From assembly GCA_022340385.1 (NCBI GenBank), contig JAJDOB010000066.1, positions 1 to 32,566 of the forward strand: a DNA stretch of 32,566 nt. The letters run 5' to 3'. The notes below the pieces were generated by a model. It ran no database searches and was not told where the DNA came from. It was given only the letters and a program-made list of their open reading frames with translations. Source of the DNA: Rhodobacter sp. (GTDB lineage Bacteria > Pseudomonadota > Alphaproteobacteria > Rhodobacterales > Rhodobacteraceae). Below, piece by piece: positions 2,573 through 29,123 of the stretch (position 1 is the first letter of the stretch; the number at the start of each line of letters is the position of its first letter). The position numbers were made by a program, and so were the translations under genes.

Positions 2573-4702
2573 ATGTTTAACGTAACGACAAAATCCATGC
2601 AGTGGGGCGAAGAAACGCTGACACTGGAAACAGGCAAGGTTGCGCGGCAGGCCGATGGCTCGGTCATCGCGACACTGGGCGAAACATCGGTGATGGCAAA
2701 CGTCACCTTCGCCAAAAGCCAGAAACCGGGACAAGACTTTTTCCCGCTGACTGTTCACTACAATGAAAAATACTATGCCGCGGGCAAGATCCCGGGCGGC
2801 TTTTTCAAGCGCGAGGCGCGCCCGACCGAGAAAGAGACCCTGACCAGCCGCCTGATCGACCGTCCGATCCGCCCGCTGTTCGTGCCCGGTTTCAAGAACG
2901 AGGTTCTGGTCATCTGCACCTGCCTTTCCCATGATCTGGTCAACGACCCCGACATGGTGGCGATGATCGCCGCCTCGGCCGCGCTGACGATTTCCGGCGC
3001 ACCGTTCATGGGCCCGATCGCGGCCTGCCGTGTTGGTTTCAGCGATGGCGAATACATCCTGAACCCTGAAATCGACGACATGCACAAGCTGCGTGAAAAC
3101 CCCGACCAGCGGCTTGATCTGGTTGTCGCCGGCACCAAAGACGCCGTGATGATGGTCGAATCCGAAGCATATGAGCTGAGCGAGGCGGAAATTCTGGGCG
3201 CGGTGAAATTCGCCCATGAGCAGATTCAGCCAGTCATTGACCTGATCATCGACCTGGCCGAAGACACCGCGAAAGAGCCGTTTGATTTTCAGCCCCCCGA
3301 CTACAGCGCACTTTATGACGCCGTAAAAGCCGCGGGCGAAGCCAAGATGCGCGCCGCCTTCGCGATCACCGACAAGCAGGAACGCACCACCGCGATCTCT
3401 GATGCCCGCGCCGCAGTCCTGGAGACCCTGACAGAGGAACAGCAGGCCGACGAGAACCTCGGCTCGGCATTCAAAAAGCTGGAAAGCTCGATCCTGCGTG
3501 GCGATGTGGTCAAGACCGGCAAGCGTATCGACGGCCGCGATCTGGCCACCGTGCGCCCGATCGTTTCGGAAACCGGCATTCTGCCCCGCACGCATGGTTC
3601 TGCCCTGTTCACCCGTGGCGAAACCCAGGGCCTGGTCGTGACAACGCTGGGCACCGGTGACGACGAACAGATGATCGACGCGCTGCACGGCACTTACAAG
3701 TCGAACTTCATGCTGCACTACAACTTCCCGCCCTATTCGGTCGGCGAAGTCGGCCGCTTCGGGTTCACCGGACGCCGCGAAATCGGCCATGGCAAACTGG
3801 CGTGGCGTGCGTTGCAGGCGGTTCTGCCTGCGGCGACAGACTTTCCCTACACCATCCGGGTCGTGTCAGAAATCACCGAATCCAACGGCTCTTCGTCGAT
3901 GGCCTCGGTCTGCGGCGGGTCGCTGTCGATGATGGATGCGGGCGTTCCGCTGAAGGCGGCGGTTGCCGGCGTGGCGATGGGCCTGATCCTTGAAGACGAC
4001 GGCTCTTACGCGATCCTGACGGATATCCTTGGCGATGAAGATCACCTGGGCGACATGGACTTCAAGGTCGCGGGAACCGAGAACGGCATCACCAGCCTGC
4101 AAATGGACATCAAGGTCGCCGGCATCACACCTGAGATCATGGAGAAAGCCCTGGCGCAAGCCAAGGAGGGCCGTCTGCATATCCTTGGTGAAATGGCGAA
4201 GGCGATGACCGAGGCGGGCGATTTTTCGGTCCACGCACCGCGCATCGAAACGATGCAGGTGCCGACCGACAAAATCCGCGAAGTGATCGGGTCGGGCGGC
4301 AAGGTGATCCGCGAGATCGTCGAGGTTTCGGGCGCCAAGGTCGACATCAACGACGACGGCATCATCAAGATCGCCTCGCCCAACGGCGACGCCATCAAGA
4401 AAGCCTACGACATGATCTGGTCGATCGTGGCAGAGCCGGAAGAAGGCAAGGTCTACAAGGGCACGGTCGTGAAGATCGTCGATTTCGGCGCCTTCGTGAA
4501 CTTCTTCGGCAAGAAAGACGGCCTTGTGCATGTCAGCCAGATCGAGAACCGCCGCCTGAACCATCCTTCGGACGTGTTGAAGGAAGGCCAGGAAGTCTGG
4601 GTTAAACTTCTGGGCTTCGACGATCGCGGCAAGGTTCGCCTGTCGATGAAAGTCGTGAATCAGGAGACCGGCGAAGAAGCCACGGAACAGGCCGCCGAAT
4701 AG
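2573..4702 (+). CDS. pnp: Polyribonucleotide nucleotidyltransferase (PNPase)
   Basis: A 709-residue PNPase, the normal length, which degrades RNA 3' to 5' by phosphorolysis as a trimer and takes part in the degradosome and sRNA metabolism. Two RNase PH domains fill residues 1 to about 550. The second carries the acidic catalytic segment [17 protein letters not shown] domain follows (about 564-620, GSGG loop at 573-576) and then an S1 domain (about 625-695, starting GKVYKG). The start at 2573 is preceded by AGGAAA at 2561 and gives the usual MFNV N terminus. The upstream in-frame codon at 2549 lies inside the leader hairpin. pnp is monocistronic, bounded by its own leader and a strong terminator. 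Confidence 0.97.
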
Positions 4703-28252: not shown

Positions 28253-28307
28253 GCTCGCGCTCCCTGGCGCCCGACTACGCCAACCGCTCGCGCCAGACAA
28301 TGCGCAA

Positions 28308-28352
28308 CAGGCCCTGCCGGCTTTGCGGAGGGGCGCAAAGCGGCAGGGCCTG
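28308..28352. repeat. Long hairpin: 19-bp stem with one bulge
   Basis: The arm 28308-28327 pairs with 28334-28352 as an almost perfect stem with a single bulged G, around a six-base loop (GAGGGG). It is the strongest inverted repeat in the window. It lies upstream of the SDR gene and downstream of the SH3-domain gene, but no T run follows on either strand, so it is not a standard terminator. It may be an mRNA 3' structure, a small RNA part, or a REP-like element. Confidence 0.6.
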
Positions 28353-28437
28353 TCACGTTGCCGCATCGCGCCAGGCCGTGAGTGGTGGAGGGTTTGATGC
28401 AGCGGTGTTGGATTCAGTGGATCGGAAGGGTGCCTAT

Positions 28438-28535
28438 AGCGTTTCGACTTGATCTTGAATCGTTTATTCGCTGCCTCTCCCCACGGTCGGGCGCGAAAAA
28501 CGATATGCGGTGTTTCGACATTAAGTCGAAACGCT
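28438..28535. repeat. 98-bp inverted-repeat unit with 13-bp ends
   Basis: AGCGTTTCGACTT (28438-28450) is exactly repeated in reverse as AAGTCGAAACGCT (28523-28535). Inside, another GTTTCGAC (28512-28519) pairs with the right end to form a small local hairpin. The right end touches the stop codon of the SH3-domain gene. The pattern resembles short palindromic intergenic elements of alphaproteobacteria, but no target duplication is evident. Confidence 0.55.
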
Positions 28536-29123
28536 TTATTGTGCGGGTTGCAGGAATCGCGCGGCCATGAAGCCGGTTTGACCCGAGGCCACGGCGCGCA
28601 CCTGGACCCAGCCATCGGGGGCTTCGGCCATCAGTTCCGCCTTGTCGCCCTCGCGCAGCCTGCCCACCACGCTGCGGCTGGTCGATGGCCCTTCGCGCAT
28701 GTTGACGCGGTTGCCGGTCACGATCAGGATCCTGGCCGCCTGCGGCGCTTCGACCGGCTGCGCCGCTTCGGCCGCTGCGTCGGCAGCATTGAATTGCAGC
28801 AGTCCGCTGGTTGTGCCTGTCAGGTCGATCCGGTTCAGCTGTGCGACCTCGACATCCGAATCGTTGTCATCAAGGGCCTGCGCCGCCTCTGCCACGGCCT
28901 CCGTCACGGCATTCGTGTCGACCGACGGCGTGGTCTCAACGACATTGGCGGACGGTTCGGCCACCGGCGCTGGCGCGACAACGGGTTCGGCGACGACCAC
29001 CGTTTCAATCTCTTCTAGCACGGCCTCTTCAATCGCCTCGGCGCGCATCTCGGGCGTGTCCTTGCCCCAGATCAGCATCGCCGCAGCCATCGCGGCCACC
29101 AGCATGAGCGTCAGTCGAATCAT
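28536..29123 (-). CDS. SH3-domain protein with N-terminal membrane anchor
   Basis: A 195-residue protein. Residues 1-19 form a hydrophobic anchor or signal segment (MIRLTLMLVAAMAAAMLIWG). A long acidic and alanine/valine-rich region (about 20-130) is a low-complexity linker. The C terminus (about 133-195) is a bacterial SH3 domain: VTGNRVNMREGPSTSRSVVGRL and GWVQVRAVASGQTGFMAARFL. Such domains bind cell-wall peptides, so a periplasmic, cell-wall role is likely; no enzyme domain is present. The start at 29123 is chosen to begin the hydrophobic segment, with AAGGGAA upstream; the frame to 29207 extends into divergent promoter DNA. The gene diverges from parC. Confidence 0.78.
   Translation of the reverse strand: MIRLTLMLVAAMAAAMLIWGKDTPEMRAEAIEEAVLEEIETVVVAEPVVAPAPVAEPSANVVETTPSVDTNAVTEAVAEAAQALDDNDSDVEVAQLNRIDLTGTTSGLLQFNAADAAAEAAQPVEAPQAARILIVTGNRVNMREGPSTSRSVVGRLREGDKAELMAEAPDGWVQVRAVASGQTGFMAARFLQPAQ

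Follow-up and report, generated by a model that had tools for sequence, protein, structure and literature searches.

Several families of short non-autonomous mobile elements (MITEs) offer points of comparison for the unit described here. RUP of pneumococcus is described as a 107-bp MITE with 108 copies, for which mobilisation by IS630-Spn1 has been proposed (PMC2229807). Like our family, RUP is a MITE of about 100 bp with IS630-like terminal inverted repeats (TIRs) and TA targets, but it has another host and another sequence and reportedly inserts in IS-containing regions, and the account of RUP that we drew on in this source does not mention rebuilt stop codons (PMC2229807). The Correia/NEMIS elements of Neisseria, MITEs of 107 and 155 bp with TA termini and a hairpin RNA that is processed by RNase III, share with our family the TA termini and the hairpin, but are placed by these sources mostly just upstream of genes (PMC2229807, PMC10969869). 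ERIC/RU-1, of which Yersinia copies at the 3' ends of genes are reported to affect mRNA levels, is also a MITE with TA termini and one long stem-loop, but has a 7-bp TIR and an enterobacterial host (PMC2229807, PMC10969869, PMC2267715); the latter two families were compared with ours by description. MITEPye1 of Paracoccus yeei is, like our family, a Rhodobacterales MITE with a predicted long stem-loop RNA, but its mobility is ascribed to IS1182-family elements and it is described with 1-3 chromosomal copies (PMC11578231). Duplication of a TA target by an IS630-family transposase has been described (PMC2170065). Our literature search returned no description of the present MITE family, nor of MITEs that rebuild stop codons. 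An IS630-type MITE is a known kind of element, similar to RUP; the special point of this one is that its ends rebuild the stops they hit.

The unit is located in a 32,566-nt stretch of Rhodobacter sp. DNA (the window), at the 3' end of a gene for an SH3-domain protein. The original prediction offered two readings, a mobile palindrome or a 3' mRNA structure of the SH3 gene, and we are highly confident that the unit is a copy of an IS630/Tc1-mariner-type non-autonomous MITE with a stop-rebuilding insertion. The features are as follows.

28536..29123, minus strand: gene for the SH3-domain protein, 195 aa (PF08239, E 1e-8); its stop codon holds the insertion
28437..28536, minus strand: putative MITE body between two TAs, oriented gene-side end first
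28537..28538, no strand: putative TA target-site duplication on the gene side, forming with 28536 the TAA stop of the minus-strand SH3 gene
28435..28436, no strand: putative TA target-site duplication on the far side, with G (28434) next on the minus strand
28511..28538, minus strand: gene-side end TAAAGCGTTTCGACTTAATGTCGAAACA, matching the right end of the IS630 element of genome G183 in 21/28 positions and its left end in 20/28
28435..28462, plus strand: far end TATAGCGTTTCGACTTGATCTTGAATCG, matching the left end of the same element in 24/28 positions and its right end in 20/28
28459..28504, minus strand: inner hairpin, with arms 28459-28471 and 28493-28504

The boundaries of the MITE body were set from the 12 full copies in the host genome and, in the case of related G010 elements, from empty sites. 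The element measures 104 bp with the flanking TA on each side (28435-28538) and 100 bp between the TAs (28437-28536). The predicted perfect inverted ends of 13 bp were present (AGCGTTTCGACTT at 28438-28450 and AAGTCGAAACGCT at 28523-28535), within longer arms, 28435-28459 and 28514-28538, that are 84% complementary. The proposed local hairpin was also recovered, with the third copy GTTTCGAC at 28512-28519 pairing with GTCGAAAC at 28525-28532. The unit does adjoin the SH3 stop codon, as had been noted, but not by its start: the gene lies on the minus strand and meets the right-hand end on the plus strand of the window. Nor does the stop codon merely abut the unit, since the TAA (28538-28536, minus strand) is partly built from it. 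The order on the minus strand is ...CAA-TA|A, element, TA|G, and the site would have been CAA-TAG before the insertion.

The window contained three 13-bp inverted repeats (non-overlapping arms within 110 nt), compared to a mean of 0.19 in first-order Markov simulations, in which at least one such repeat was seen in 13% of 300 runs, and the inverted repeat alone is therefore weak evidence. It is the dispersed copies and not the palindrome that decide the mobile identity. A second near-perfect hairpin, with 13-bp arms and an inner 8-bp stem, is located at 28307-28353, in the spacer that separates the SH3 gene from the following one; it is possibly a terminator, and no other copies of it passed E 0.1 in the host genome.

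In the host genome, a draft of 3.93 Mb in 305 contigs that is about 90.6% complete, we identified 12 near-full copies of the element (82-100% identity, the window copy counted) and 5 partial copies at E ≤1e-3. A single-copy sequence, conserved only as part of this gene neighbourhood, had been suggested as the sign of an mRNA element; instead, the sequence is dispersed, and the element was absent from all 29 SH3 homologues examined at loci fetched from the 180 genomes, out of 295, that had SH3 homologue matches. Over the C-terminal stretch that was compared, these homologues are 35-58% identical to the window protein, and their ends fall within a few residues of its own (FLSPANPG, FLAPSE and FLIPAE, compared to FLQPAQ in the window). 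The window's genus is represented by one genome and the SH3 3' end was compared at the protein level; the history given above for the window copy is a proposed one.

To outline the distribution of the family, we searched several genome samples. Within the GTDB family, 37 of the 394 genomes sampled matched at the DNA level (host counted, two candidates scored per genome), while a covariance model recovered relatives in 52 of 198 (host counted, at most 20 candidates taken per genome), or about a quarter. A class-wide sample yielded matches in 4 of 289 genomes, three from the same GTDB family, which is itself part of the sample, and one from outside it. When named genomes were searched for exact occurrences of the conserved core, the apical part of the inner hairpin, at least 80 contig stretches were returned; among the matches listed, 71 were Rhodobacterales by record title (Sulfitobacter, Roseovarius, Loktanella and others), 4 were titled Alphaproteobacteria only and 5 were metagenome bins called Hoeflea, Neomegalonema or Mesorhizobium. 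By themselves, these matches would place the host in the Rhodobacterales. The element was not found in a phage collection, nor in viral contigs searched with one exact pattern, and Rfam searches of the window stretch and 11 loci gave matches only below gathering scores and none on the element.

The element was also present on 17 plasmids, 14 of which are predicted to be conjugative. Two of the plasmid matches overlie a type IV secretion gene, and in the single plasmid region examined the element lies within a virB-type operon. In this region, on a plasmid of Sulfitobacter alexandrii (L337), an annotated hypothetical protein of 89 aa at 2841-3110 (270 nt) spans the element match; it is probably a false gene call, and such elements can cause false calls of small proteins.

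The copies fall into subfamilies of different lengths, namely 93 bp in G010, 104 bp in G003, 115 bp in G183 and, for the most part, 105 bp in G155 and G173. The four 115-bp copies of G183 are nearly identical but differ in their flanks. In G010, which belongs to another genus, a degenerate end pattern gave 99 forward and 103 reverse matches compared to 4 and 5 for a reversed control, corresponding to about 100 element ends per strand. The element thus occurs in multiple dispersed copies at unrelated sites; it is non-coding, has terminal inverted repeats and is too short to encode a transposase. The host genome also contains an apparent second subfamily with TTTCGCGTT-type ends (C86:3069-3173, C200:10359-10463 and C244:15283-15387; L144-L146). 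Four copies in G173 (L119-L121) have common flanks beyond the element, which there seemingly lies inside a larger repeat. On contig C3 of G010, two elements surround a gene that by its translation reads like selU/mnmH, in a unit of 1281 bp (L128, 1538-2818) that is a possible compound mobile unit.

We also searched eight genomes with PF13358, the catalytic domain of IS630. G183 contained 111 matches and G108 two, while none was found at E 0.001 in the host draft genome, G010, G155, G003, G173 or G145. The G183 element is 1057 bp long and contains two overlapping frames, of which the second (231 aa) matches PF13358 (E 2.5e-32) and NF033545 (130 bits, above the cut-off) and the first (141 aa) matches NF033545 below the cut-off (53 bits). 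Its ends are TAAAGCGTTTCGTCTTGAACCTGAATCG on the left and TAAAGCGTTTCGACATTAACCTGAGACA on the right; the loci of both G108 matches were without such ends by the pattern used. The consensus of the host copies agrees with the left G183 end in 23/28 positions at the far end (19 with the right) and with the right G183 end in 23/28 positions at the gene-side end (21 with the left). Judged by these alignments, the element ends clearly resemble IS630-family ends of Rhodobacterales. For the window copy, the left/right assignment appears clear at the far end and slight at the gene-side end (21 vs 20 of 28). An autonomous IS630-family element with matching ends is present in G183, and such an IS was not found in the host draft genome, where a resident partner would be sought by ends starting with TAAAGCGTTTCGACTT and TATAGCATTTCGACTT.

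The scores of 98 of the 111 PF13358 matches in G183 fall between 111.9 and 113.3 bits, as would be expected if a single IS630 element had recently undergone a burst. Most of the 104+104 end matches found in this genome belong to the IS itself and do not represent about 104 MITEs, of which there are 4 copies. Using the G010 ends, we also looked for an autonomous IS in that genome: among the matches listed (100 of 202), the ends in the 15 other stretches read paired at 93 bp, once at 94 bp, and one of these stretches (L142) had no partner by the pattern used. A pair of element ends 49 bp apart was seen at C1:250384.

Ends of the same kind occur on plasmids. From a set of 11 plasmid IS630 copies, 10 of them from Rhodobacterales, eight had a clean end pair; the left motif TGAATCG was exact in five of these and near in two, and the right end was within a TGAGACAT-like motif in seven. 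The ends of the Dinoroseobacter shibae plasmid element differ, and no clean end pair was obtained for the copies from Sulfitobacter OXR-159 (set inwards), S. faviae and Azospirillum. Both ends could be placed for 26 of 30 IS630 loci, 28 of the 30 being from G183, and the base before the TA was C in 23 and T in 3, while the base after it was G in 21 and A in 5. IS630, whose host is Shigella, reportedly prefers TA within 5'-CTAG-3', a finding said to be that of Tenzen and Ohtsubo in 1991; its target preference is as in the G183 counts, but it is an autonomous element. The target of our element is likewise Y-TA-R, with the TA duplicated. Integron attC sites also follow genes; this candidate was dropped because the ends and the target fit IS630.

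To reconstruct the sites before insertion, we joined the flanks of nine G010 elements and compared them with G010 and 60 relatives, examining five of these loci (L094, L095, L096, L099 and L106); an empty row, that of L163, was left out of the alignment. At L099, all 15 alignable congeners have the gene end at the codon that carries the element in G010 (5 TAG, 1 TAA, 9 TGA), while G010 reads GGT-TA|AAGCG...GCTA|TA-G. Compared with the TAG congeners, the TA of the TAG was duplicated and the first A of the element makes the new TAA. L106 (two relatives, TAA) and L094 (TAA, TAG) are in agreement; at L095 and L096 the stop of the relatives is TGA, about one codon off. The TA target and its duplication are thus seen in the empty sites of G010 copies, and the rule from these sites, with the ends of the window copy, suggests the same duplication at 28537..28538. 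At 5 of 16 loci, two convergent genes end in the same YTAR with their stops overlapping by 4 nt (no gene 1 was obtained for 2 of the 16 loci and no gene 2 for 3). In G010, the second convergent gene has lost its own stop and extends by 7 codons, reaching a TGA inside the element; three G010 copies removed the stop of the opposite-side gene in this manner.

Taken together, the dispersed copies, the near-identical copies in G183, the empty sites in G010 congeners, the TA duplication and the IS630-like ends support the MITE reading of the original prediction. Being short, palindromic and dispersed, the element could also be viewed as a repeat of the REP type, on whose single-stranded hairpins a RAYT (Y1 transposase) would act to move it. 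REPs are described as palindromes of 20-40 bp with a GTAG or CGTC tag (PMC3733652), while the present element is about 100 bp with the ends TAAAGC and TATAGC, and the TA duplication and IS630-like ends also argue against this explanation, to which we give almost no credence.

To quantify the association with stop codons, we scored coding-biased open frames of 80 codons or more, counting any frame that ended in the TAA of the element. In the host genome, 10 of the 12 full copies were located at a stop, the window copy among them, and so were the two partial copies whose gene-side end is intact, giving 12/14. In the same host stretches, with the elements' own TA sites included in the counts, the background at stops was 115/1598 for TA, 28/102 for YTAR and 10/23 for CTAG (Fisher's test for 10/12 copies: 3e-10, 2.6e-4 and 0.034, respectively). 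The enrichment over CTAG alone (p 0.034) is modest. Estimates for YTAR vary with the gene criterion (16/115 vs 28/102, the latter from the same test as for the elements); by crude gene calls, 81/115 of the YTAR sites in the host stretches are in stops or intergenic. MITEs at a stop numbered 9/17 in G010, 9/11 in G155, 4/5 in G003, 1/4 in G183, 0/4 in G173 and 13/25 in other relatives, with 2/12 in the host genome and 8/17, 2/11, 1/5, 3/4, 4/4 and 12/25, respectively, located elsewhere. Overall, 33/53 MITEs were at a stop compared to 6/26 copies of the G183 IS (p 0.0016), a total in which neither the set of 25 from other relatives, with its 13 at stops, nor the two partial host copies are counted. 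For copies with no empty site, a hit stop codon and a slight in-frame truncation look alike in this test; a hit stop codon is favoured by the SH3 homologues and by the empty sites.

The orientation of the copies follows the end that can rebuild a stop. The stop-side end is one that supplies A or G after the TA; it is chiefly the 5' end in the host genome and exclusively so in G010, while in G003, where the 5' end reads TAT, the stop is at the 3' end. In G155 both ends supply A or G and the stop is at either end (4 and 5 of 11), and two host copies have a stop at both ends. A stop lost at the 5' end of the element was seen in no group tested. Since orientation tracks the stop-rebuilding end and not the hairpin, this pattern argues against an orientation-specific mRNA element, and the suggestion that a 3' mRNA structure is the reason for the placement did not gain support. 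Insertion combined with selection for an intact stop explains the orientation pattern.

We infer that the element is mobilised in trans and that its present placement reflects a survivor effect. A transposase from an IS630-family element with similar ends would excise the MITE in trans and join it at a TA, preferably within YTAR or CTAG, duplicating the TA. In this GC-rich genome, most such sites would lie between genes or in stop codons. Where the element enters the TA of a stop codon that is TAG or TAA, its first base (A or G) would complete a new TAA or TAG, leaving both the stop and the protein of the host gene intact. Copies that land inside coding sequence, or that have a TAT-reading end at the gene, would be costlier and largely lost, and the survivors would thus mark the 3' ends of genes.

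We also examined the covariation of the hairpin. Across 36 elements, the modelled structure pairs in 94.9% of cells, and 18 of 31 pairs in the outer and inner stems are changed on both sides compared to 6.8 in shuffles (0/500 as high), using a structure obtained by folding some of these elements. In the inner stem, columns 43-82 contain UA 14, CG 9, GC 8 and UG 4, and columns 57-65 CG 17 and GC 13. In the gene-sense strand a U-G pair is kept in 33/36 elements, and G-U is found in 10/36 at columns 10-104. The apical part TTCGCGTTCGASCGNAGSGAGAGGCAGCGAA is common across genera, with a different loop in G010 and deviations in detail in the window copy. GNA triloops form specially stable hairpins. 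The outer-stem covariation is accounted for by both ends serving one transposase, an explanation that does not extend to the inner stem.

The strong covariation of both stems, the conserved U-G and G-U pairs in the gene-sense strand, the position directly after stops and the copy inside a virB-type operon could all be taken as signs of a conserved host 3' mRNA element that ends, processes or stabilises transcripts, with the copies kept for this function. We consider this very unlikely given the genome-specific subfamilies with near-identical copies, the empty sites and the IS630-like ends, which also explain the outer-stem covariation; furthermore, in 4/5 G003 copies the gene runs into the hairpin from its other end, and in G155 from either end. 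A less remote alternative, which from our analysis may be possible but is not the likely one, is that an IS630-type insertion came first and the inner hairpin was later kept for the mRNA, as a terminator, RNase target or stabiliser. This would fit the inner-stem covariation beyond end recognition, the apical motif common to several genera and the precedents described for NEMIS in Neisseria and ERIC in Yersinia (PMC2229807, PMC10969869), but the orientation relative to the gene varies between subfamilies, the apical loop is different in G010 and the conservation of the hairpin may stem from constraints at the DNA level. Under the preferred reading of an IS630-type MITE, the hairpin conservation may reflect either such a constraint or an RNA role, and a secondary effect of the hairpin on the mRNA may exist.

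For the biology of these genomes, the TA/CTAG preference of IS630-type transposition can make stop codons near-neutral landing sites where the DNA is GC-rich. The element supplies the missing base of the stop codon, and where the stops of convergent genes overlap, both genes share one target. More speculatively, and on balance doubtful, the copies may represent a stop-codon-dwelling MITE lineage whose TA-A and TA-G ends enter stops harmlessly, even those shared by convergent genes, with ends that vary with the partner IS630 and a structured core, conserved across genera of Rhodobacterales, that would terminate or process host transcripts as a portable 3' module. The conserved inner hairpin makes such a portable role at the 3' end of transcripts a testable idea.
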